DNA of 27,990 nucleotides from a virus. Shown here in pieces: positions 5,843 through 27,990 of this stretch. The notes under the pieces were generated by a model. That model searched no databases and was not told the origin of the DNA. It was given only the letters and a program-made list of their open reading frames with translations. The number at the start of each line of letters is the position of its first letter. The stretch's first letter is position 1. The stretch spans positions 1-27,990 of IMG/VR virus record IMGVR_UViG_3300042691_024126; one strand, written 5' to 3'. The position numbers and the translations under genes were made by a program.

Positions 5843-5885
5843 TGCGGCCTTAGGCATTCAACCCGCAATATAAATTCTGCATGTC
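5843..5885 (+). promoter_or_regulatory. Structured queD leader, possible control element
   Basis: TGCGG (5843-5847) pairs with CCGCA (5863-5867) at the very 5' end of the predicted queD mRNA. The loop GGCAU (5853-5857) could also pair with AUGUC (5881-5885), with one G.U, which would make an H-type pseudoknot. QueD genes are often controlled by preQ1 riboswitches, which are small H-type pseudoknots with a C-rich second strand and an A-rich tail. This element has a CCC strand and an AU-rich tail but lacks the usual A-rich consensus, so it is only a candidate. A TATAAATT box at 5869-5876 lies directly behind the hairpin. Confidence 0.3.
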
Positions 5886-5922
5886 ATCAAACTTTCTCTT
5901 CATTTTAAAAAGGAGGCAAGAG

Positions 5923-6456
5923 ATGGCAAAATATCTTTCAACAAAAACTTACGGTAACGACAGAGGGCTGTCATGCTGTTTTAGACAATGGCGCAGTACA
6001 CATAGCCACTGCTCATTACTACACGGATATTCAATTGGTATCAAATTAATTTTTGAATCCGAAACACTAGACGATCGTAACTGGGTCATGGACTTTGGTG
6101 GGCTCAAAGCATTTAAAGAGTGGAGTGAACACATGTTTGATCACACTTTGGTTATTGCCAAAGATGATCCACATTTACAAATGTTCTTAAAAATGGCTGA
6201 ATTAGGTTTACAAGACCAAGGTGGTGTTTGTGACGTTAGACTAGTAGAAGGTGTGGGCTGTGAAAAATTTGCAGAACTAGCCTACAATGTAATGAATAAC
6301 ATTCTTAAAACTTTTCAAGAAGGCGAAGATTGGACACTGCTTAAGAATAACGGCAAAGTTGTTTTCAAAGCACGTTATCCTGTTGGTCAAGGTGTAAAAC
6401 TACGTTCAGTAGAAGTTTTTGAACATGCTGGTAACTCAGCAGTGTATGAAGGATGA
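5923..6456 (+). CDS. queD: 6-carboxytetrahydropterin synthase-like protein (QueD/PTPS family)
   Basis: QueD turns 7,8-dihydroneopterin triphosphate into 6-carboxytetrahydropterin on the path to preQ0/preQ1, used for queuosine and, in some phages, 7-deazaguanine DNA bases. ATG 5923 is preferred over ATG 5881 because AAGGAGG ends six bases before it. Over 177 residues the family pattern is visible: THSHC...LHGY (His27, His29, Cys30 as nucleophile candidate, His34), WVMDFGGLK (residues 54-62), FDHTLV (72-77), GCEKFAE and a C-terminal VEVFEH. The usual HGH zinc motif reads HGY (Tyr36), as I recall from a phage/bacterial subgroup, so the third ligand must come from elsewhere. No other queuosine gene is in the window. 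The last bases overlap the next gene (ATGA). Confidence 0.8.
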   Translation: MAKYLSTKTYGNDRGLSCCFRQWRSTHSHCSLLHGYSIGIKLIFESETLDDRNWVMDFGGLKAFKEWSEHMFDHTLVIAKDDPHLQMFLKMAELGLQDQGGVCDVRLVEGVGCEKFAELAYNVMNNILKTFQEGEDWTLLKNNGKVVFKARYPVGQGVKLRSVEVFEHAGNSAVYEG

Positions 6457-6644
6457 ATAGTTTTGAACGTATATGGGCCCGGGCAACTGGGCACCTAATG
6501 GGACAGACTGATGAGGACAGGCCAGATGTACCTATTCTCACTGTACGTGAAGCACGAGTAGCATTATTTTTAAAAACATTTTGGGTAATTATTCACGTGG
6601 TTACTTGCTTGTTTATTATCGCCAATGTAATTAGACATTGGTAA
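6453..6644 (+). CDS. Small single-span membrane protein
   Basis: 63 residues. Its ATG overlaps the queD stop (ATGA, 6453-6456), so it is probably translated by coupling. The N-terminal 30 residues are charged (FERIWARATG, TDEDRPDVPILTVREARVA), followed by one hydrophobic helix (FLKTFWVIIHVVTCLFIIANVI) ending in RHW. Small proteins of this design with DEDRPD.PILTVREA recur in marine T4-like phages as I remember them, with no known function. The stop codon TAA (6642-6644) is part of the kdsA promoter box. Confidence 0.75.
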   Translation: MNSFERIWARATGHLMGQTDEDRPDVPILTVREARVALFLKTFWVIIHVVTCLFIIANVIRHW

Positions 6645-6647
6645 ATA
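6622..6647 (+). promoter_or_regulatory. Hairpin plus late-type box GGTAAATA before kdsA
   Basis: CCAATGT (6622-6628) and ACATTGG (6635-6641) form a perfect 7-bp inverted repeat with a 6-base loop. It is directly followed by TAAATA (6642-6647). The kdsA ATG at 6653 comes five bases after the box and there is no Shine-Dalgarno sequence, which predicts a leaderless late mRNA. The hairpin would be present only in RNA read through from queD. Confidence 0.5.
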
Positions 6648-6652
6648 ATTAT

Positions 6653-7483
6653 ATGCATACATTTAACATCAACAAAATTACTATTGGTTCTTCAGACTCA
6701 CTGGTAATTATCACCGGCCCTTGCCAAATTGAAAGTCAAAGCCATTCTGAAGAAATGGTTGGACAAATCAAACAAATTACTGATGATCTTAATCTACCTC
6801 TAATATACAAAAGTAGTTTTGATAAAGCTAATAGATCTAGTTTAAAAACTAAAAGAGGTTTAGGCATTGATCAAGGTTTAAAAATTCTTAATGCTGTTAA
6901 ACACACATTTGGTGTTGCTGTTCTAACAGACATTCATGAAAGCTATCAAGCAAAACTTGTAGCAGATGCAGGCATAGACGTACTACAAATCCCTGCATTT
7001 TTATGTAGACAAACTGATTTATTATTGGCTGCTGGTGAAACAGGCTGTGCGATAAATGTCAAAAAAGGACAGTTTCTTGCTCCCCACGACATGAAAAACG
7101 TTGCAGAAAAAATTGCTTCTACAGGCAATCAACGTATAATGTTATGTGAAAGAGGTTACAGTCATGGCTACAATAATCTTGTTGTTGATATGCGCAGTCT
7201 ACCTATTATGGCACGTACTGGTTATCCCGTGGTTTTTGATGCAACACATTCTGTACAGCAGCCTGGAGGCATGGGAGAAAAGTCAGGTGGAGATAGATCA
7301 ATGGTACCCTACTTGGCGAGGGCCGCTGTAGCCACAGGCTCAGTTAGTGCAGTGTTTATTGAAACACATGAAGATCCAGACTCTGCACCAAGCGATGGTC
7401 CTAATATGGTTCCAATTTCCGAATTAAGGAAATTAATTAGTCAATTAAAATTTCTCCACGACAATGTCAGAAGATTTAACTAA
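6653..7483 (+). CDS. kdsA: KDO-8-phosphate synthase, metal-dependent type
   Basis: KdsA condenses phosphoenolpyruvate with arabinose-5-phosphate to 3-deoxy-D-manno-octulosonate-8-phosphate, the first committed step to the lipopolysaccharide sugar KDO. The 276-residue frame is full length. ATG 6653 is chosen over an upstream TTG because of the family N-terminus. Visible motifs are ITGPCQIES (20-28), FDKANRSS (56-63), TDIHE, QIPAFLCRQTDL (112-123), NVKKGQFLAP (135-144), FDATHSVQQPGG (195-206) and FIETHEDPDSAPSDGPN. Cys24, His199, Glu237 and Asp248 match the four metal ligands of the metal-dependent class; the metal-independent E. coli enzyme has Asn instead of Cys. All key residues are present, so it should be active. 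It overlaps the next gene by 20 bases. A rare phage-borne auxiliary gene. Confidence 0.93.
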   Translation: MHTFNINKITIGSSDSLVIITGPCQIESQSHSEEMVGQIKQITDDLNLPLIYKSSFDKANRSSLKTKRGLGIDQGLKILNAVKHTFGVAVLTDIHESYQAKLVADAGIDVLQIPAFLCRQTDLLLAAGETGCAINVKKGQFLAPHDMKNVAEKIASTGNQRIMLCERGYSHGYNNLVVDMRSLPIMARTGYPVVFDATHSVQQPGGMGEKSGGDRSMVPYLARAAVATGSVSAVFIETHEDPDSAPSDGPNMVPISELRKLISQLKFLHDNVRRFN

Positions 7484-8264
7484 AGCTGAACGCAAGGCAC
7501 TTAAGGCCCAGATAAAATTAGAGAAAGCACTATCAAAATTAAAAAATCAACAGATTGATAGTTATAGTAGAAACGTAGTGTGTTTGAAATATGGTGACAA
7601 ATATTCAGCACAGTATGTTAATCGTCTTTATAATATGGTAAAAAGACACACCACAGGTGATGTTGGTTTTTATTGTATAACAGAAAATCCTGTAGGATTA
7701 GATAATCAAATCAAAGTAATACCTGTACCTCAAAATAAATCATTGCAAGGATGGTGGTACAAACCGTTTGTGTTTAGTAAAGAATTTCCAGTACAGGGAA
7801 AACTATTATTTTTAGATCTTGACATAGTTATCATAGCTAATATAGATTGTTTTTTTGAATATACACCTACTAAATTTTGTATCATTAGAGACTTTACTAG
7901 GGCTATGAATTCATCTTGGAATAGATACAACAGTAGTGTGTTTAGATTAGATTCTGGAACATTGCCAGATGTTTGGGAAAAGTTGATAAGAGATACTTCG
8001 GTTACTAAAAGATTACACGGTGATCAAGATTGGCTTTTCGAAACTATCAAAGAAAACTTTACATTTTGGCCTGATGAATGGTGTCAGAGCTACAAATGGG
8101 AAATTAGAAATCGAAATGAAATAGTTGGGGTTGGTAGACAAAGAAACTTTGCTACTATACAACACGAGCCCAAAATAAAACCAGAAACTAGAATTTTAGT
8201 TTTTCATGGTGACCCAAAACCAGAACAAGTAAAAGATCCTATCGTTGTTACCAATTGGAGTTGA
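7464..8264 (+). CDS. Glycosyltransferase-like protein (GT-A fold, GT8-like)
   Basis: 266 residues, beginning inside the 3' end of kdsA (20-base overlap). Residues 5-30 are a Lys/Glu-rich helix likely to form a coiled coil. The rest resembles GT-A enzymes: NVVCLKYGDKYSAQYVNRLYNMVKRH (38-62) with a first beta strand, WWYKPFVF (97-104), then a metal-binding DxD in KLLFLDLDIVI (Asp118, Asp120). Next come YNSSVFRLDSG, HGDQDWLFE and a closing FHGDPKPEQV, as in GT8-type and phage glycosyltransferases. Donor and acceptor cannot be read from sequence. Co-transcription with kdsA suggests a surface-sugar function. Its stop TGA lies inside the TTGACA of the uvsE promoter. Confidence 0.8.
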   Translation: MSEDLTKAERKALKAQIKLEKALSKLKNQQIDSYSRNVVCLKYGDKYSAQYVNRLYNMVKRHTTGDVGFYCITENPVGLDNQIKVIPVPQNKSLQGWWYKPFVFSKEFPVQGKLLFLDLDIVIIANIDCFFEYTPTKFCIIRDFTRAMNSSWNRYNSSVFRLDSGTLPDVWEKLIRDTSVTKRLHGDQDWLFETIKENFTFWPDEWCQSYKWEIRNRNEIVGVGRQRNFATIQHEPKIKPETRILVFHGDPKPEQVKDPIVVTNWS

Positions 8265-8295
8265 CATTTTGTACTGTATGTTTTATAATACAGTA
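8261..8295 (+). promoter_or_regulatory. Consensus sigma70 promoter embedded in a start-codon dyad (uvsE)
   Basis: TTGACA (8261-8266), 17 bases, TATAAT (8284-8289) is a perfect consensus promoter. The ATG of uvsE begins at 8295, the expected initiation point, and no Shine-Dalgarno is present, so the mRNA should be leaderless. TACTGTAT (8272-8279) and ATACAGTA (8288-8295) are a perfect 8-bp inverted repeat whose right arm includes the A of the start codon. RNA read through from the upstream glycosyltransferase would fold the start codon into this stem, but RNA begun here would not. Confidence 0.85.
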
Positions 8296-9311
8296 TGACT
8301 AAACGCATCGGCTTCGCTTGTAAATGGATCGACCATCCTCATCAAATTGACGGGATTGGTCCTAAAGATGAATGTAGAAAATACAATACAGGTGCTACTA
8401 CTGTGGCCTGGCTTAACCGTCAGACCAAAGCAGTAGCAGAACAAAAACTATGGGACCTTGTTAAACAAAACATTGAGTCAGCCAGACTGTTAGTCGAACG
8501 TGTAGGAGATTTAAATGATGAATTACGAATGGTTCGTCTTAGCAGTGATATCCTCCCTGTCTATACTGAGCCTACTTGGCGCTATTTTTGGCAGTTACCT
8601 GATGTACGTACATATGCAGAACGGGCTTTTGCAGAAGTGGGCCGGCTGGCTCGGGATCGTGACGTTCGTCTGTCTTTCCATCCTGGCCAATTTTGTGTAC
8701 TGGCTAGTGATAATCCAGACGTAGTAAATAGAAGTATAGAGGAGTTTGAATATCATGCCGATATGGCTAGATGGATGGGCTATGGCTCAACGTTCCAGGA
8801 CTTTAAAATCAATGTCCACATTGCGGGTAGAGCCGGTCCCGCCGGTATCAAAGCCGCACTTAGGCGTCTCTCACCAGAGGCGAGAAACTGTATTACTATC
8901 GAAAACGACGAAGTCAGTTGGGGAATCGAATCCAGCCTCGAACTGGCAAACGATCTCGCTTTGGTGTTAGACGTACATCACCACTGGGTTAAGACTGGAG
9001 AATACATTAGTGCAGAAGATGACCGTGTTAAGAAAGTTATTGACAGTTGGCGCGGTGTTCGTCCTGTTATTCATTTCAGTGTTAGTCGTGAAGATGTACT
9101 TGTCAATCATGACACTACCAATCGCCCAATCCTGGAGTCTTTGCTAAACAGTGGATACAAAAAGGCAAAACTTAGAGCACACAGTAATTTTTACTGGAAC
9201 AAAGAAGTAAATGACTGGGTACTTACTTTCCGTGACAATTTTGACATCATGTGCGAATCAAAAGCTAAAAACTTGGCTAGTTTCAAACTATACAATTATG
9301 CCAATGGATAG
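8295..9311 (+). CDS. uvsE: UV damage endonuclease UvsE/UVDE
   Basis: UVDE nicks DNA 5' to cyclobutane dimers and 6-4 photoproducts, opening a repair route independent of nucleotide excision. The 338-residue protein fits the TIM-barrel family. It has RIGFACKWID at the N-terminus, ELRMVRLSSDILP (76-88), LSFHPGQF (126-133, His129), INVHIAG (172-178, His175), ITIENDE (200-206, Glu203) and LVLDVHHH (223-230) as metal-site segments, then PVIHFSVSRED (257-267). All core His/Glu/Asp positions appear kept, so activity is expected. It is noticeably richer in G+C and CGN arginine codons than its neighbours (for example 8821-8900), hinting at recent transfer or a different expression class. It is transcribed from its own consensus promoter as a leaderless message. 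Confidence 0.93.
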   Translation: MTKRIGFACKWIDHPHQIDGIGPKDECRKYNTGATTVAWLNRQTKAVAEQKLWDLVKQNIESARLLVERVGDLNDELRMVRLSSDILPVYTEPTWRYFWQLPDVRTYAERAFAEVGRLARDRDVRLSFHPGQFCVLASDNPDVVNRSIEEFEYHADMARWMGYGSTFQDFKINVHIAGRAGPAGIKAALRRLSPEARNCITIENDEVSWGIESSLELANDLALVLDVHHHWVKTGEYISAEDDRVKKVIDSWRGVRPVIHFSVSREDVLVNHDTTNRPILESLLNSGYKKAKLRAHSNFYWNKEVNDWVLTFRDNFDIMCESKAKNLASFKLYNYANG

Positions 9312-9531
9312 TTTAGGTTGGTCTAACGAGGCTTTTAATCACCGATGCATAGGTTGGGAACTTAAATTTTCACTGATACCAAGACGTTGTTTTTACACTG
9401 GTAAACAATTATGGTTTAAAATGGCTTATAAGGGTATAGGCATGATTACAGGTCCAGGGGAACCTGTGTTTGAGTATCGATGGTGTGAAAGAAAAGAGTA
9501 CTTGTTTTTAAAACTAAAAGGAACAATATAA
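9298..9531 (+). CDS. Small conserved phage protein
   Basis: About 77 residues starting at ATG 9298 inside the last codons of uvsE (ATG 9304 also possible). A longer in-frame extension only shadows uvsE. The sequence is rich in aromatic and basic residues: GWELKFSLIPRRCFYTGKQLWFKMAYKG, then ITGPGEPVFEYRWCERKEYLFLKLK. The W-IKF-L-PRRC...W.K.AY.G...GPG.PVFE.RW pattern seems to be a recurrent uncharacterised tailed-phage protein. The two cysteines are not in a metal-binding spacing. It ends in the left arm of a terminator. Function unknown. Confidence 0.7.
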   Translation: MPMDSLGWSNEAFNHRCIGWELKFSLIPRRCFYTGKQLWFKMAYKGIGMITGPGEPVFEYRWCERKEYLFLKLKGTI

Positions 9532-9553
9532 GGGGCACACGACCCCTTATATT
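9525..9553. terminator. Bidirectional terminator between convergent genes
   Basis: AATATAAGGGG (9525-9535) and CCCCTTATATT (9543-9553) form a perfect 11-bp stem with a 7-base loop (CACACGA). A+T-rich flanks on both sides give U-rich ends in both directions. It contains the stop codon of the plus-strand gene and abuts that of the minus-strand gene at 9552. Confidence 0.85.
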
Positions 9554-9785
9554 ATTGAGCTTTAGCTTTTGGCTTTCTGCCACGTGGCTTCCCACCCTGC
9601 TTAGGCGCACCACTTTGCTTTTTTGGAGCTGGTTTTTTCTTAGGTGCTGACACTGCTGGAGCAGCCTCGACAACTGGTGCTGGAGCAGGGGTTGGTTCTG
9701 CCACAGGCGTTTCAATTTTATATGGGGCTTCCGCAGTCACTTCTGCTGGCTTTGCGCCAAATAGTTTCTTAATTAATCCGAACAT
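9552..9785 (-). CDS. Small Ala/Pro/Lys-rich basic protein
   Basis: 77 residues. The start is ATG at 9785 (read leftwards) with a perfect AGGAGG nine bases upstream on the minus strand; the longer frame to 9929 runs through the sod gene and has no such site. The N-terminus (MFGLIKKLFG) is a short amphipathic helix that could touch membrane. The middle is Pro/Ala/Val/Glu low complexity. The C-terminus is strongly basic (KKKPAPKKQ, GGKPRGRKPKAKAQ), like histone-H1-type tails. A nucleic-acid or membrane-surface role is possible but not shown. A late-type AATAAATA box for this strand is part of the palindrome at 9805-9822. Confidence 0.75.
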   Translation of the reverse strand: MFGLIKKLFGAKPAEVTAEAPYKIETPVAEPTPAPAPVVEAAPAVSAPKKKPAPKKQSGAPKQGGKPRGRKPKAKAQ

Positions 9786-9804
9786 TATAGTTCCTCCTGT
9801 GGAG

Positions 9805-9822
9805 ATATTTATTAATAAATAT
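9805..9822. promoter_or_regulatory. Palindromic bidirectional late-type promoter
   Basis: ATATTTATTAATAAATAT (9805-9822) is a perfect 18-bp palindrome holding an AATAAATA box on each strand (plus 9814-9821, minus 9813-9806). The plus-strand box is four bases before the sod ATG (9826) with no Shine-Dalgarno. The minus-strand box is 20 bases before the ATG at 9785, with AGGAGG between. One element thus predicts a leaderless mRNA one way and a leadered mRNA the other way. Confidence 0.6.
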
Positions 9823-9825
9823 AGT

Positions 9826-10392
9826 ATGGACAATGAAATCAAGAAATTTTTAACTATTTTAGAGGGAAAAAAGGAAACTTTAGAACTCAAAAGCCTTCCG
9901 TACTCTAGGAACGAGTTAAGTCCTTCCATAAGTAAAGAAACACTTGATTATCATTATGGAAAATTGGCTCAAAGTTATGTAGACAGATTTAACAAAGGCG
10001 AGGGCGATTCCAAATTTAATCGAGCAGGCGCATTTTTACATAACATATTATTTGCACAATATCAAAAACCTAAAAACAATAATGAACCCACTGGGCCAAT
10101 TAGTGAGTTTATAAGAAAACATTACAAGACTTTTGACAAATTTAAAGAAGAATTTGCAGAAACTGCTATGAAGATACAGGGCAGTGGATGGGCATATCTA
10201 GCTCGTGATGGAAAAATTAAAACTATTACCAATCATGAAATTAAAAATGATATTGTTCTATTAGTGGATTGGTGGGAACATGCCTGGGCTTTAGATTATC
10301 AAAGCGATAAAAGAAAGTATCTAGAAAATCAATGGAAGATCATCAACTGGAACGCTGTCAGTTCCACTCTAGGTCTAGCAACTAAAATTTAA
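9826..10392 (+). CDS. sod: Fe/Mn-family superoxide dismutase, compact form
   Basis: Superoxide dismutase converts superoxide to oxygen and hydrogen peroxide. The 188-residue frame starts at ATG 9826, the only start next to a promoter box. LPYSRNELSPSISKETLDYHYGK (24-46) is the family N-terminus. The four metal ligands are present: His43, His72 (AGAFLH), Asp148 and His152 (DWWEHAWALDY). The gating Tyr is at 51. Differences: the usual active-site His four residues after the first ligand is Leu47, and the loop between the first two ligand helices is much shortened. Position His72-4 is Gly68, as in Mn enzymes, while N136-H137 could take the role of the usual Gln. Metal choice cannot be told. Likely late-expressed; its stop codon lies in the next promoter box. 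Confidence 0.9.
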   Translation: MDNEIKKFLTILEGKKETLELKSLPYSRNELSPSISKETLDYHYGKLAQSYVDRFNKGEGDSKFNRAGAFLHNILFAQYQKPKNNNEPTGPISEFIRKHYKTFDKFKEEFAETAMKIQGSGWAYLARDGKIKTITNHEIKNDIVLLVDWWEHAWALDYQSDKRKYLENQWKIINWNAVSSTLGLATKI

Positions 10393-10399
10393 ATAGTTG
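10379..10399 (+). promoter_or_regulatory. Late-type box inside a start-codon hairpin (desaturase)
   Basis: TTTAAATA (10388-10395) lies four bases before ATG 10400. CAACTA (10379-10384) and TAGTTG (10394-10399) pair as a 6-bp stem with a 9-base loop, the right arm touching the ATG. The TAA in the box is the sod stop codon. No Shine-Dalgarno is present. The same CAACTA/TAGTTG arms recur at 25330-25344. Confidence 0.6.
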
Positions 10400-11116
10400 A
10401 TGACCGCAACTCAGCAATTAAAAATTGTTACATTCATATTCGCTCTAGCATCAATATATTATTTTGATATTGGTTTACTATTAGCAGGTATAATTTTAGG
10501 GTGGGTGTTATCAGGTATTTCTGTTAGTGCCTTATATCATAGAAAAATCAGTCACAGAGCATTTGAATATCGAAACAAATTATCTGAATACTTCTGTTAT
10601 TTCCTAATGATAATAAGTGGGCAAGGAACTCCTTTAGGTTGGGCTATTATACATAGAACCCATCATACTAAAACCGATACTGCCGAGGATCCACAAAGTC
10701 CTTTTAGTGTAGGTAAATTTAAAACACTAATATCTTGGTACAGTATAGATAATGTAAATCCTAAATTAGTCATGGATGTGCTTAGAGATAAAAAGTTAAT
10801 GTTCCTACATAATCACTATAACAAATTATTTGCTGTATACGTGTTAACATTATTTTTAATAAATCCACTTTGGATTGTATATTTTGCTGGGGTTAGCGTT
10901 ACTGTATGTGCATTTTTCTTAGGTATTGTTAACACTTGGGGTCACAGTGACTACCATAGAATTAACGACACTTATGCTAGAAATATTAGTTTTTTAGGAC
11001 TGTTGTGGGGTGAAGATACACACAAAGATCATCACCTAAAACCTAGTCTAGCTAAATTTAATGATCACGACTACTGTTATTGGTTTATTAAATTGGTAAG
11101 CAAACCTAAAATTTAG
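10400..11116 (+). CDS. Membrane acyl (delta-9-type) fatty acid desaturase
   Basis: An integral-membrane di-iron desaturase, which puts a double bond into an acyl chain using oxygen and two electrons, usually from ferredoxin or cytochrome b5. Over 238 residues all three histidine boxes are intact: HRKISH (His47...His52), HRTHH (85-89) and HKDHH (208-212), with GHSDYHR (181-187) near the third. Hydrophobic segments lie at about 8-45, 64-82, 144-165 and 165-180. EDPQSPF after box two is typical of acyl-lipid and acyl-CoA desaturases. It is a little shorter than most bacterial members at the N-terminus. It lies eight bases after sod. FdxA and ErpA elsewhere in the window could supply electrons and clusters. 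The C-terminus overlaps the converging minus-strand gene by 11 bases. Confidence 0.92.
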   Translation: MTATQQLKIVTFIFALASIYYFDIGLLLAGIILGWVLSGISVSALYHRKISHRAFEYRNKLSEYFCYFLMIISGQGTPLGWAIIHRTHHTKTDTAEDPQSPFSVGKFKTLISWYSIDNVNPKLVMDVLRDKKLMFLHNHYNKLFAVYVLTLFLINPLWIVYFAGVSVTVCAFFLGIVNTWGHSDYHRINDTYARNISFLGLLWGEDTHKDHHLKPSLAKFNDHDYCYWFIKLVSKPKI

Positions 11117-11393
11117 ATATATCGTTAAGGCTACTAGCCTTCATATCCCAAATCTTCCTGCTGTCCACGCCCTTTCTTTGTGCAAACTTTTTAGAATCAC
11201 AACACCCACATACGTGGAAATAATTGTTGTTTAGTCGTTTAGGGCTCATTTTTTGTCTATCCCTGCGAAAAATTTCCCCACAACTATCGCACCTAAAAAC
11301 AGCTACAATTTTATCTCTTAGGTAGGTATGCAACGTACCTAGCTTACTGACACGTTGAAATTCTGATGTAGTTTTTTCTTCTTGCAAGAACAT
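11106..11393 (-). CDS. Small zinc-ribbon-like phage protein
   Basis: 95 residues starting at the ATG read from 11393 (a TTG three bases upstream is less likely). Two cysteine pairs are visible: FRCDSCGEIF (CxxC) and VCGCCDSKKFAQ (CxCC), about 29 residues apart, as in a zinc ribbon. The C-terminus KGVDSRKIWDMKASSLNDISK looks like a conserved tail. Such small proteins with KRLNNNYFHVC..C..KKFAQ.KG appear, from memory, in many marine phages. A role in DNA binding or nuclease function is possible, but no nuclease residues are evident. It converges on the desaturase gene with overlapping stops. On its own strand TGTAAATA ends four bases before the ATG. Confidence 0.75.
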   Translation of the reverse strand: MFLQEEKTTSEFQRVSKLGTLHTYLRDKIVAVFRCDSCGEIFRRDRQKMSPKRLNNNYFHVCGCCDSKKFAQRKGVDSRKIWDMKASSLNDISKF

Positions 11394-11397
11394 CAAA

Positions 11398-11405
11398 TAT
11401 TTACA
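11398..11405 (-). promoter_or_regulatory. Late-type box TGTAAATA, leaderless spacing (minus strand)
   Basis: On the minus strand TGTAAATA (11405-11398) is followed by TTTG and then the ATG at 11393. There is no Shine-Dalgarno in the 30 bases upstream. It is divergent from the erpA box at 11426-11433. Confidence 0.5.
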
Positions 11406-11423
11406 TTAAGGTTATAAAACCGT

Positions 11424-11437
11424 TTGATAAATATCAA
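11424..11437 (+). promoter_or_regulatory. Late-type box inside a start-codon dyad (erpA)
   Basis: TTGATAAATATCAA (11424-11437) is an inverted repeat (TTGAT/ATCAA with an AAAT loop) containing GATAAATA (11426-11433). It ends one base before ATG 11439. No Shine-Dalgarno is present. The TTGATA/TATCAA arms recur, extended, at 22111-22133. Confidence 0.6.
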
Positions 11438-11438
11438 T

Positions 11439-11792
11439 ATGATAACAATAACTGACTCTGCAAAAACAAAAATTATTGATCTACTTAATGAGGAAAACAA
11501 CCCTAGCCTTTGTCTAAGAACATTTGTACAGGGCGGTGGCTGTAGTGGATTTCAATATGGATTCACATTTGATGAAGATCAAAACGATGATGATTTTGAA
11601 ATACCTTTAGAAAAATATAAAATTTTAATAGATGCTATGAGTATGCAGTATTTACAGGGTGCAGAAATTGACTATAAAGAAGACCTGATGGGTGCTAGTT
11701 TTAACATAAAAAACCCCAATGCACAAACTACTTGTGGTTGTGGATCTAGTTTTTCGCCTTCAGATAATTTTTATGATGGGATGAATGAATAA
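11439..11792 (+). CDS. erpA: ErpA/IscA-type iron-sulfur carrier protein
   Basis: A-type carriers hold and hand over Fe-S clusters to target enzymes. The 117-residue protein is typical: [12 protein letters not shown] start, [21 protein letters not shown] (26-46) with Cys35, and [15 protein letters not shown] (92-106) with Cys99 and Cys101, so all three cluster cysteines are kept. The [24 protein letters not shown] segment and the [14 protein letters not shown] ending are closer to ErpA than to IscA or SufA. ATG 11439 is chosen from family length; the frame could open at TTG 11424. The stop overlaps the giant fibre gene start (TAATG), so it shares a late operon with a structural gene. FdxA at 27762 is a plausible client. 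Confidence 0.9.
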
Positions 11793-24528: not shown

Positions 24529-25100
24529 CAAGCGCAATTTCAACTTCTTCAATTGACGAATCATATCCAGTTGCTGGGCAAGACAACAACAGCCAAGGAT
24601 TTAGAGATAATTTTAATGCCATTAAAACAGCACTTAATACTGCTAAAGGCGAAATTGATACACTGCAATCTGGCACTGCTAAGTTAAATGTGGCAAATAA
24701 TTTTAATGGGGTTTTGTTGGAAGATGCAGAAGTAAACAAGTTTTACGGGTCAGTAAGACAAAACGGCACTGTATCAACAAACTCAGACATTGATTTAGAA
24801 AATGGTCCGTTACAAGTAGTCACTGTTGGCGCAAATATATCACTAAGATTTATCAACTGGCCCGACAGCGATCTATATGGTAAGATGAGATTGCATATCA
24901 AAAATACCAGTGGAAGTTCTAAAACTATAACTTTAGACAGTCAAGGTGTTACAGATATTAAATTTGTTTCTGGGGAGTTTACTGCATCAGGATCACTAGC
25001 ACAAGTAGCTGTAGCAAATAACACAGAGGTTGTAGTTGAAGCTTGGACTTATGATAACGGTGTAAATGTTTATTTGAAGAATTTTGGTGTGTTTGCATGA
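24525..25100 (+). CDS. Fibre-associated protein with N-terminal coiled coil
   Basis: 191 residues, ATGA overlap with the upstream gene. The N-terminus (YPVAGQDNNSQGFRDNFNAIKTALNTAKGEIDTLQSG, about 14-50) carries the NNSQGFRDNF motif of phage fibre attachment segments, related in style to the NDGTGD..R.(A/S)F.KVN.NF blocks nearby, followed by a short heptad helix. The remaining beta-rich part (residues about 85-191; GPLQVVTVGANISLRFINWPDSDLYGKMRLHI..., LAQVAVANNTEVVVEAWTYDNGVNVYLKNFGVF) resembles a capping domain seen in phage structural proteins. Likely a short tail fibre or tip component. Confidence 0.8.
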   Translation: MTSAISTSSIDESYPVAGQDNNSQGFRDNFNAIKTALNTAKGEIDTLQSGTAKLNVANNFNGVLLEDAEVNKFYGSVRQNGTVSTNSDIDLENGPLQVVTVGANISLRFINWPDSDLYGKMRLHIKNTSGSSKTITLDSQGVTDIKFVSGEFTASGSLAQVAVANNTEVVVEAWTYDNGVNVYLKNFGVFA

Positions 25101-25336
25101 CAGCAATAAATCCATTGATAGAAGATTTATCAAAACTTAAAGACGCTGAGGTCGAAAATAAAATACAAGATCTCAGCAAAAAATATTGGACTGCTAGTAA
25201 CCCAAATTTAAAAATGCAAATTGCATCATTTTTAGACATTTACAAAGAAGAATTAACTACTAGGCGAGCTAAAGCCTGGGATCAACAATACCAAAAACGT
25301 AATAAAGATCTTGACGACTTGATTCAAATCAACTAA
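25097..25336 (+). CDS. Small helical phage protein
   Basis: 79 residues, ATGA overlap with the fibre-associated gene. Almost wholly helical and charged: NPLIEDLSKLKDAEVENKIQDLSKKYW, then MQIASFLDIYKEELTTRRAKAWDQQYQKRNKDLDDLIQIN. The conserved position at the end of the structural operon suggests a chaperone or minor virion role. No motif is recognised. Its stop codon TAA (25334-25336) is within the promoter dyad of the next gene. Confidence 0.7.
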   Translation: MTAINPLIEDLSKLKDAEVENKIQDLSKKYWTASNPNLKMQIASFLDIYKEELTTRRAKAWDQQYQKRNKDLDDLIQIN

Positions 25337-25345: not shown

Positions 25346-25855
25346 ATGCAATCTGACAAATTTGGTAATATAACTTATAATGAAAAAGAACTAATTGATC
25401 TGCTGTATAAAGATCAGTTAGATTTTTTATCAAAGGTTTATTTAGAAAAAACCCCAAACATAGATAAACTGAAAGAAATTTCAGAAATCAATCTACAGCA
25501 CTTAGATCCAAATATTGAAACAGTATCTATAGAGGATTTTGATCTAGCACATCAAAGTGTTTGGTTTATGCCTGAAAAATATAAAAGTTTTGATATTAAA
25601 AATTGGGTATTAGAACAATGTGCAGATACAGAAGCTTATAATAGAGCTCAAGAAGAACTAGCAGAATTCCAAGCAAGAAATATGATGCCCTTGCTTCAAT
25701 GGCTTAAATACCTAGTAGATACCTGCAGAGCTAACAACATCGTTTGGGGTGTGGGGCGAGGCAGTAGCGTCAGCAGTTTTGTGTTATTTTTAATTGGTGT
25801 ACACAAAATAGACTCAATTAAATATGACTTAGATTGGCGTGATTTTTTAAGATAG
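25346..25855 (+). CDS. DNA polymerase III alpha-like fragment without catalytic aspartates
   Basis: 169 residues. The C-terminal 55 (LLQWLKYLVDTCRANNIVWGVGRGSSVSSFVLFLIGVHKIDSIKYDLDWRDFLR, given here as blocks: helix 116-131, GVGRGSS 135-141, hydrophobic helix 143-152, KIDSIKYDLDWRDFLR 154-169) match the palm segment of bacterial DnaE (GRGSaaGSLv.Y.lgIt.iDP..yDLlFERFL). In DnaE the GRGS motif binds the nucleotide triphosphate, and the catalytic PDxDxD aspartates follow just after FERFL. Here the frame stops at exactly that point. The N-terminal 110 residues are acidic and not recognised. It cannot be a polymerase alone. It could be a regulator, a decoy or a pared-down replisome contact. Confidence 0.75.
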   Translation: MQSDKFGNITYNEKELIDLLYKDQLDFLSKVYLEKTPNIDKLKEISEINLQHLDPNIETVSIEDFDLAHQSVWFMPEKYKSFDIKNWVLEQCADTEAYNRAQEELAEFQARNMMPLLQWLKYLVDTCRANNIVWGVGRGSSVSSFVLFLIGVHKIDSIKYDLDWRDFLR

Positions 25856-25869
25856 TAAAGGAGATTGCT

Positions 25870-26085
25870 ATGGCAATGAAAGAAGGATTAAAAAAGGCTT
25901 ACCGAAGTGCATTAGGCAAAGAGGTAGACTTAGAAAAATTAAGGAATCAAAATGAATTGACTCTAGCAGTTGGTAATGCTAAAGTAAATGCTCGTGGAGA
26001 TGAATTAGGACCTGGCGGTAAAATTATCCGTAAACGTGAAGATGTTCTAAAAGAATATTACAAAGGTAAACCAAAGGACGAATAA
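25870..26085 (+). CDS. Small conserved phage protein
   Basis: 71 residues with AAAGGAG (25857-25863) before ATG 25870. A basic helical N-terminus (KEGLKKAYRSALGKEVDLEKL) is followed by ELTLAVGNAKVNARGDELGPGGKIIRKREDVLKEYY. The AVGNAKVNARGDELGPGG core looks highly conserved among marine T4-like phage proteins in my memory; function unknown. The TAATG overlap with the co-chaperonin gene suggests the two are made together, but that does not show that they act together. Confidence 0.75.
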   Translation: MAMKEGLKKAYRSALGKEVDLEKLRNQNELTLAVGNAKVNARGDELGPGGKIIRKREDVLKEYYKGKPKDE

Positions 26086-26411
26086 TGAACGTTGTAAAAG
26101 GCAAACTAAGACCAATAAGAAATAATGTTTTTGTTTCTGATATGGATTTTGACATGCGTGTAAGTGCAGGCGGCATTGTGCTTCCCAATGATGATGGTAA
26201 GACCGAAGGTATTAGACCACGTTGGGGTAAAGTATTTGCTATTGGGCATGAACAAACAGACGTAGCAGTTGGCGAGTGGATCTTAGTTGAACACGGTCGA
26301 TGGACTAGAGGAATTACTATTGAAGATGAAAATGGAAATGAAATTATCATCAGAAGAGTAGATACTGATTGTATATTGGCTAAAGCTAACGAACGACCAT
26401 CAGACGTTTAA
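26085..26411 (+). CDS. GroES-like co-chaperonin (functional counterpart of T4 gp31)
   Basis: GroES caps the GroEL folding chamber; T4 replaces it with gp31 to fold its large capsid protein. The 108-residue frame begins by TAATG overlap. It shows KLRPIRNNVFVSDM (GroES beta-barrel start, 7-20), a mobile loop with SAGGIVLP (27-34) that is the GroEL-binding sequence of host GroES, RWGKVFAIGHEQTDVAVGEWILVEHGRWTRGI (47-78) and IIIRRVDTDCILAK (87-100). It is much closer to bacterial GroES than T4 gp31 is, so host origin is likely. It should act in the cytoplasm with host GroEL. It is followed by a strong terminator. Confidence 0.88.
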   Translation: MNVVKGKLRPIRNNVFVSDMDFDMRVSAGGIVLPNDDGKTEGIRPRWGKVFAIGHEQTDVAVGEWILVEHGRWTRGITIEDENGNEIIIRRVDTDCILAKANERPSDV

Positions 26412-26742: not shown

Positions 26743-26894
26743 CAAATGATTTAAAATTTACGACAGCAGGTGAATATATGAAGGATCACGATCCACCAGA
26801 ACCCTGCTATATTATTGAAGGCAAGTGGGCTGAAGATACAAAGGAAGAAAATGAAAGAACTTTGGGTAGAGAAATACCGTCCAAAAACAATTGA
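26739..26894 (+). CDS. Short ORF of 51 codons overlapping the clamp loader gene
   Basis: Starts by ATGA overlap (26739-26742) with the membrane-protein stop and ends at TGA 26892-26894, so its last 44 bases overlap the clamp loader start in another frame. The product begins MTNDLKFTTAGEYMKDHDPPEPCYIIEG and is acidic. The perfect ATGA junction argues for real translation, and it would carry ribosomes up to the gp44 start. Homologues are not known to me. It could be a coupling peptide only. Confidence 0.5.
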   Translation: MTNDLKFTTAGEYMKDHDPPEPCYIIEGKWAEDTKEENERTLGREIPSKNN

Positions 26895-27765
26895 CGGATA
26901 CGTGTTTAGAGATGAACATCAAAAACAACAAGTAGAAAGATGGGTCAAAGAAGGCACTATTCCACACTTGTTGTTTAGTGGCAATGCGGGTATTGGTAAA
27001 ACAACCTTAGCAAAAATATTGCTTAATGAACTAGGCGTTAACGATCTTGACGTACTAGAAATTAATGCATCAAGAACAAATAGTGTTGAGGACGTTCGAG
27101 ACAAAATTGTTAACTTTGTGCAAATGATTCCCTTTGGAGATTTTAAGGTAGTACTATTAGATGAAGCAGATTATTTGTCACCTAACGCTCAAGCGGCACT
27201 TCGTGGTGTTATGGAGGAGTATCACACTACGTCTCGTTTTATCCTCACTTGCAATTATCCTAATAGGGTCATTCCTGCACTACACAGTAGATGTCAAGGA
27301 TTCCACGTTGAAAGAGTGGATGCTACAGAATTTACTGCAAGAGTCGCTACAATACTCGTTGAGGAAAACATAGAGTTTGATTTGGACACATTGGATACTT
27401 TTGTTAAAGCTACCTATCCAGATCTCCGTAAATGTATTAATACTGTACAGATGAACAGTTTAGATGGTCATTTACATAGTCCAGAAAAAAGCGATAGCGG
27501 ACAAGCTGATTATAGATTAGAAATGGTTCAATTGTTTAAAGCTGGCAAGATTAGCGAAGCAAGAAAATTAATATGTAGTCAAGCTCGACCAGAAGAAATG
27601 GAAGACATTTATCGTTGGCTTTATGATAATATAGTGTTGTTTGGTGAAGAAGAAAAACAAGAAAAAGCAATACTTATAATCAAACAAGGTCTTGTAGATG
27701 ACACTTTAGTAATTGATCGTGAAATTAATTTAGCCGCAACTTTGATTAGATTGTCACACCTATGA
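26851..27765 (+). CDS. 44: Sliding clamp loader subunit, T4 gp44 type
   Basis: AAA+ ATPase that, with a gp62-type partner, loads the sliding clamp onto primed DNA for phage replication. 304 residues. ATG 26851 is chosen because AAGGAAG precedes it and [19 protein letters not shown] is the family N-terminus; the frame extends 12 codons upstream without support. Motifs: Walker [10 protein letters not shown] (44-52), Walker [10 protein letters not shown] (101-109), sensor 1 TCN (133-135) and the SRC arginine-finger motif in LHSRCQG (144-150). The lid and collar follow, with [11 protein letters not shown] near 211-221. All ATPase residues are present. The stop overlaps the ferredoxin start (ATGA). 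The gp62 partner is not in the window. Confidence 0.93.
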
Positions 27766-27990
27766 CACACTTAGTTACAGAAAATTGTATTAAATGTAAG
27801 CACACTGACTGCGTTGATGTTTGTCCTGTGGATTGTTTTTATGAAGGTCCCAACTTTCTAGTAATTAATCCAGATGAATGTATTGATTGTGCCGTTTGTA
27901 TTCCCGAATGTCCTGTGGAGGCAATCGTACCAGATAATGTAGATAATATCGATGTTATTCACTGGACTGATTTAAACAGACGACTTAGCA
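27762..27990 (+). CDS. fdxA: Seven-iron ferredoxin (FdxA type), 3' truncated
   Basis: Electron carrier with one [3Fe-4S] and one [4Fe-4S] cluster. The 76 visible residues start by ATGA overlap with the clamp loader gene and run off the window. Cysteines at 9, 12, 17, 21, 25, 40, 43, 46 and 50 follow the spacing of Azotobacter ferredoxin I (8, 11, 16, 20, 24, 39, 42, 45, 49). By that scheme Cys9, Cys17 and Cys50 bind the 3Fe cluster and Cys21, Cys40, Cys43 and Cys46 the 4Fe cluster. [29 protein letters not shown] is near-identical in style to proteobacterial FdxA. Cotranscription with the clamp loader suggests early expression. It could feed the desaturase, which is inference. Confidence 0.92.

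Follow-up and report, generated by a model that had tools for sequence, protein, structure and literature searches.

A DnaE palm segment encoded apart from its catalytic aspartates suggests a two-subunit minimal C-family polymerase in jumbo phages

A 27,990-nucleotide stretch of viral DNA (IMG/VR record IMGVR_UViG_3300042691_024126, positions 1 to 27,990; hereafter the window) contains a small gene that resembles part of DnaE, the alpha subunit of DNA polymerase III, and ends 5-6 residues short of the catalytic aspartates of DnaE. We propose that this gene, here called piece 1, probably specifies the first of the two subunits of a minimal C-family (DnaE-type) nucleotidyltransferase or polymerase of jumbo myophages. 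The missing half is supplied by a second stand-alone gene, piece 2, which belongs to PHROG 11778, encodes about 190 residues and opens with MPDIDIDF. Both genes are homologous to DnaE, the break between them is exactly complementary, the known catalytic residues are invariant, and the two genes co-occur across genomes in conserved positions. The pairing of these genes as one enzyme appears not to have been described before.

Results

Piece 1 is a conserved segment of the DnaE palm

Piece 1 is an open reading frame (ORF; 25346-25855, plus strand) for a protein of 169 aa that terminates in DWRDFLR. Residues 91-168 matched positions 17-94 of the 260-position Pfam profile PF07733 (42.9 bits against a cut-off of 23.9 bits; E = 5.9e-11), and residues 6-169 matched positions 12-171 of PHROG 11127 (171 aa), an end-to-end match with E = 3e-39. 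Judged by these two profile matches, piece 1 belongs to a phage family that has been described but not characterised, and is no chance frame. Divergence from its closest relative was 0.018 at nonsynonymous sites (dN) and 0.235 at synonymous sites (dS), and piece 1 is therefore under purifying selection.

The point at which the protein stops is a property of the family. Counted from the G of GRGS, the protein ends exactly 33 residues on in 136 of 139 closed relatives (115 of them distinct), 34 on in two and 35 on in one, and profile alignment places this conserved end at the LFERFLN residue of DnaE. The GRGS motif, which marks the palm Gly-Ser helix of the C family, is invariant in all 141 distinct piece 1 sequences. 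The original prediction, made from the letters of the window, had recognized the C-terminus as the GRGS palm segment of DnaE running through a FERFL-like end, and had argued that the gene was not a fresh truncation. The PF07733 match and the predicted fold described below agree with the former claim; the end point kept in relatives and the purifying selection bear out the latter. A further claim, that the gene has its own start signals, was not confirmed: no clear Shine-Dalgarno sequence precedes the ATG (upstream sequence AACTAAAATAGTTGAATG), and the start lies 9 bases past the stop of the upstream gene.

Relatives of piece 1 are very common in viral metagenomes, with at least 594 loci in one scan, 80 of which were retained. 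The gene also stands alone in the isolated jumbo phages 121Q, RaK2, PAC2, MIJ3, Atu_ph07, Phosso and Vibrio 2.275.O, all of which have the same genes downstream of it (a small protein, a GroES-like protein and the gp44 clamp loader). Phage XacN1 has a stand-alone piece 1 as well, with partly different neighbors.

A second gene carries the catalytic half

On one contig (L142, binned with Bacteroidales and evidently phage), piece 1 is followed by the GroES-like gene, gp44 and, after some 5.8 kb more, an ORF that contains the motifs ADIDIDF, GYLKLD, ALIRPGKK and FKRSHAIAY, the order in which the DnaE palm and fingers continue past the break. This ORF (6236-6829) matched PHROG 11778 (197 aa) with E = 1.9e-60. 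Piece 2 typically opens with M(P)DIDIDF, at the methionine within the VSMPDIDIDF motif of DnaE, and its first aspartate lies no more than 6 residues from the start in 114 of 135 loci. Piece 2 holds all three catalytic aspartates together with the RPG and KSHAxxY finger motifs. A PF07733 scan of whole jumbo phage genomes, which returned one real match per genome and a single sub-threshold match besides, wrongly suggested that the missing half was not encoded in them; piece 2 has diverged too far, and is too short, for the PF07733 profile to recognize it. Side matches to phrog_405 (profile positions 579-809) were considered as a DnaQ exonuclease and rejected, as they coincide in position with piece 2.

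Throughout the C family, the aspartates equivalent to E. coli D401, D403 and D555 show absolute conservation, and DnaE types also conserve D405 (PMC3919608), whereas PolC has an asparagine at this last position. The triad lies on piece 2; neither piece 1 nor the window carries it. The DxDxD motif and the third catalytic aspartate were present in 124-125 of 125 distinct piece 2 sequences, the exception being a start called late. The third D of DIDID, equivalent to D405, was found in all 125, as were the H, G, K, RPxK and H..Y residues near the active site.

The two halves abut in sequence and in predicted structure

AlphaFold2 models of piece 1 and piece 2 had predicted local distance difference test scores of 90.9 and 93.0. 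Residues 61-169 of piece 1 aligned with E. coli alpha 273-393, mycobacterial DnaE 304-413, Taq 291-455 and PolC 819-965, and matched DnaE/PolC chains exclusively (Z 7.8-12.6). Residues 1-189 of piece 2 aligned with E. coli 400-781, mycobacterial DnaE 419-808, Taq 461-838 and PolC 971-1358 (Z 9.1-9.8 in the best chains). Above Z 4, fold matches were limited to DnaE/PolC chains, and the top Foldseek rows were all DnaE/PolC, well clear of unrelated rows. In all four reference structures, the ranges covered by the two pieces abut without overlap, with 5-6 residues missing between them. The profiles place the break identically: in Taq numbering, piece 1 ends at 455 and piece 2 starts at 461.

The two genes occur together but are not fused

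BLAST identified piece 2 in 65 phage records, largely those of phages with piece 1. Conversely, at least 56 of the 57 phage records with piece 1 have piece 2; 54 of these are among the BLAST matches listed, and MIJ3 and Vibrio 2.275.O were added by profile. For RAS14, SCTP-2 and Slicko01, BLAST gave piece 2 only and a profile revealed a diverged piece 1. Both pieces were present in every tested IMG/VR contig longer than 230 kb (G005, G006, G007, G014, G019 and G022-G026), and any contig with just one piece is either a fragment, as most of the metagenomic contigs are, or is missing the clamp-loader gene adjoining piece 1 as well. Piece 2 is absent from all six frames of the window, because the window is a 28-kb fragment; its relatives lead us to expect the gene in this phage.

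In one metagenomic group, piece 2 lies 4-8 kb downstream of piece 1 on the same strand, while in isolated phages the distance ranges from 11 to more than 200 kb. Piece 1 and piece 2 are gp56 and gp16 in 121Q, and ORF162 and ORF124 in RaK2. No ORF fusing the pieces into a single continuous polymerase chain was found among 138 piece 2 and 181 piece 1 loci. The original prediction had named relatives with the missing DxD part as an adjacent or fused frame as evidence against itself; that part does exist in relatives, as a separate gene that is neither fused nor adjacent, and in essence this counts against the prediction that piece 1 works alone.

Both genes are kept among replication genes, piece 1 beside the gp44 clamp loader and piece 2 in a replication cluster near uvsW, the gp61 primase and/or the gp41 helicase. 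In 108 of 127 loci, piece 2 is immediately preceded by a gene of PHROG 11058 (C2H2-like, unknown function), whose product is a candidate third subunit or DNA-binding partner. Ahead of PHROG 11058 comes PHROG 11758, which lies upstream of piece 2 in 106 of 114 loci. By eye, the PHROG 11758 protein resembles T4 gp62, the small clamp-loader subunit reportedly absent from these phages; a search of the Protein Data Bank for support of a hidden gp62 gave no match.

Domains typical of C-family polymerases are missing

The PHP domain and the (HhH)2 motif are nearly universal in bacterial C-family members (PMC3919608). Neither piece has them: Pfam reported PF07733 on piece 1 and a weak PF17657 on piece 2, and both proteins are too short to accommodate the missing parts. 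The pair is therefore not an ordinary DnaE. The thumb region, about 134 residues in Taq (473-607), corresponds to 44 profile positions in piece 2, such that at least about 90 residues are gone, and much of the fingers (the Taq 712-809 stretch) is gone too. No recognized HhH, clamp-binding, OB or tau-binding part was found on either piece.

Other features of the window and its relatives

Coordinates of the features are collected in Table 1. The PHROG 14844 protein, whose gene usually lies between piece 1 and the GroES-like gene, has a strongly conserved motif, NARGDELGPGGKI. Piece 1 also occurs on contigs in metagenome-assembled genomes labeled Saccharibacteria, Neomarinimicrobiota, Pacearchaeota, Rickettsiales, Pelagibacter, Methylophilaceae and Bacteroidales (L135-L142), which are probably phage contigs binned with those genomes.

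Six marine phage contigs encode a separate, unsplit and compact DnaE without a PHP domain (about 563-579 aa), 5-7 kb from piece 2. These ORFs matched the piece 1 profile and were considered as a fusion of the two pieces; we rejected this, as they are separate, intact PHP-less DnaE proteins. In the two such contigs tested, both of them fragments, a family-B polymerase was not found, and the unsplit DnaE may be the replicase of those phages.

Elsewhere in the window, positions 5881-11792 hold metabolic and repair genes among tail genes, encoding a PTPS family protein, a DAHP/KDO8P-type synthase, a UvdE UV endonuclease, an Fe/Mn superoxide dismutase, a fatty acid desaturase and an Fe-S biogenesis protein. 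A ferredoxin-like ORF lies at 27762-27989.

Table 1 Features of the window and of related contigs (window coordinates unless a contig is named).
Feature	Coordinates	Strand	Basis or occurrence
Piece 1 of split mini-DnaE (PHROG 11127, N-part of PF07733), 169 aa	25346..25855	+	ORF list, profile matches, AlphaFold2 model
DnaE-homologous palm segment, residues 91-168, up to FERFL-equivalent end	25616..25849	+	PF07733 profile 17-94 of 260
GRGSS motif, residues 137-141, triphosphate-binding Gly-Ser helix of palm	25754..25768	+	Sequence motif
Family-specific N-terminal ~60 residues, DnaE counterpart not found	25346..25525	+	VIA-align match limited to model residues 61-169
Small conserved upstream gene, 79 aa, HPL..DL..L.D.E...KI..L.KKY	25097..25336	+	Directly upstream in 119/162 relatives
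Downstream small gene, PHROG 14844, 71 aa, unknown function	25870..26085	+	Next gene in 133/164 relatives
GroES-like co-chaperonin, PF00166; PHROG 931/3188	26085..26411	+	Downstream in 144/146 relatives
T4 gp44-like clamp loader ATPase, PHROG 168	26815..27765	+	Downstream in 80/81 relatives with enough flank
PHROG 11058 gene	L211:2107-2799	-	
PHROG 11058 gene	L145:3945-4655		
PHROG 11058 gene	L148:4313-4984		
PHROG 11058 gene	L142:5380-6258		
PHROG 11758 gene	L211:2799-3293	-	
PHROG 11758 gene	L142:4035-4496		
PHROG 11758 gene	L257:6644-7102		
Unsplit PHP-less DnaE	L250:13127-14815; also in L223, L239, L245, L248, L280		Full PF07733 and finger domain

Discussion

The complementary break, the invariance of the residues and the co-occurrence of the genes lead us to infer that the two products assemble and are catalytically active. 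Piece 1 would provide GRGS and with it the triphosphate-binding half of the palm, and piece 2 the strand of catalytic aspartates, the third aspartate and reduced fingers; the two would associate without a peptide link and rebuild one active site. The product would be DNA, most likely made in short gap-filling or repair synthesis beside the family-B replicase that these phages also encode. We prefer a gap-filling or repair role because there is a viral precedent for a palm-plus-fingers enzyme, African swine fever virus PolX, a minimal polymerase with a nucleotidyltransferase fold (PMC11646218); that enzyme differs in belonging to the X family, in being a single chain and in coming from a eukaryotic virus. 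With less assurance than for the two-subunit assignment itself, we lean towards a polymerase active site split over two separately encoded, unlinked subunits, one with the triphosphate-binding half and the other with the metal-binding aspartates, which would assemble without splicing. At about 360 residues, it would be among the smallest C-family cores and would constitute a conserved second polymerase of a large jumbo phage clade.

Several observations weigh against this proposal. Lacking the thumb, HhH and clamp-binding regions, the pair offers no explanation for DNA binding and processivity. The two genes are usually far apart and hence not co-transcribed, which is unusual for an obligate 1:1 complex. 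The mirror-tree comparison does not single out the pair: partial rho was 0.35 for piece 1 and piece 2 given gp44, and 0.25 for piece 1 and gp44 given piece 2. Taken by themselves, the Foldseek E-values are weak (best 1.7e-2 and 1.4e-3). Finally, three contigs of 199-222 kb have piece 2 and no piece 1; they are probably incomplete at the piece 1 region, because a convincing gp44, the near-constant neighbor of piece 1, is absent from them too.

The main rival, which we regard as unlikely, accepts that the pieces assemble and denies that they form a templated DNA polymerase. The complex would instead be a template-independent or signaling nucleotidyltransferase with a C-family palm and no thumb, acting in end-tailing, nucleotidylation or the production of a small nucleotide messenger. 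Some polymerase folds have reduced relatives that make other products, and the loss of the thumb and other DNA-holding parts next to invariant catalytic and nucleotide-site residues fits such an activity. Retention of the DnaE finger motifs RPG and KSHAxxY argues for a polymerase, as does the location of both genes with those for the clamp loader, UvsW, primase and helicase.

Their residence in different clusters with different neighbors would also suit a scenario in which the two genes are relics of an ancestral split phage DnaE that have taken on separate structural or regulatory roles, piece 1 for example with the GroES-like/gp44 cluster, and no longer use catalysis. This is improbable, since metal-binding aspartates and nucleotide-site residues that are invariant across very diverged sequences are hard to explain without catalysis. 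Still less probable is the function put forward in the original prediction, a lone nucleotide-binding decoy that mimics host DnaE and disturbs host replication. Piece 1 is indeed a small stand-alone piece of the DnaE palm with an intact GRGS, but a complementary half with all the catalytic residues is conserved in the same genomes, the end of piece 1 and the start of piece 2 fall at the same DnaE position, and a decoy would have no use for a DIDID partner. With a separate gene supplying the catalytic half, the decoy becomes unnecessary. Joining of the halves by a split intein or by trans-splicing, for which cyanobacterial DnaE (PMC3919608) and the split-intein PolB of phage MIJ3 (PMC6892783) are precedents, can be dismissed at the sequence level, as neither piece has an intein domain: piece 1 adds nothing beyond the residue equivalent to FERFL, and piece 2 in most cases begins 1-6 residues ahead of its first aspartate.

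The proposed two-subunit enzyme can be set beside known systems. It shares with DnaE and PolC the GRGS helix, the DxDxD strand, the third aspartate, RPG and KSHAxxY in the same order, but where those are single chains of roughly 1,000 residues or more, here there are two proteins of about 170 and 190 residues. Like cyanobacterial DnaE (DnaE-N and DnaE-C), it derives from two separate genes; in cyanobacteria a split intein joins the halves, whereas the phage pieces have no intein sequence and are divided within the palm active site. Jumbo phages with split family-B polymerases, such as MIJ3, likewise have a phage polymerase gene in pieces. The MIJ3 polymerase belongs to family B, and an intein and a homing endonuclease are associated with it (PMC6892783); the same genome also encodes a split mini-DnaE.

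The individual genes have been noticed before. PHROG 11127 and PHROG 11778 are both labeled 'DNA polymerase'; the record of Sinorhizobium phage Phosso calls both pieces 'DnaE-like', and that of PAC2 names both after Pol III alpha, in each case unpaired. The authors of the CBB genome remarked that its Pol III alpha, at 172 aa, is truncated (PMC5259590), and gp316 of Atu_ph07 was read as Pol III alpha (PMC6102473). A literature search, with most subscription papers outside its reach, found no paper pairing the two halves as one enzyme.

Bacteria use C-family polymerases as their replicases, and the known ones are very large chains. If our proposal is right, a core of about 360 residues, cut through its active site, would show what the catalytic fold minimally needs and would provide a small reagent for structural and inhibitor work. 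It would also account for the gene that has long carried the label of a truncated Pol III alpha in the well-known jumbo phages 121Q, RaK2, CBB, PA5oct and Atu_ph07. A survey of marine jumbo phages reported PF07733 as the only gene that is both widely present in the PGC_A group and unique to it (PMC9123017), so a function assigned to PF07733 would bear on a large fraction of marine jumbo phages.
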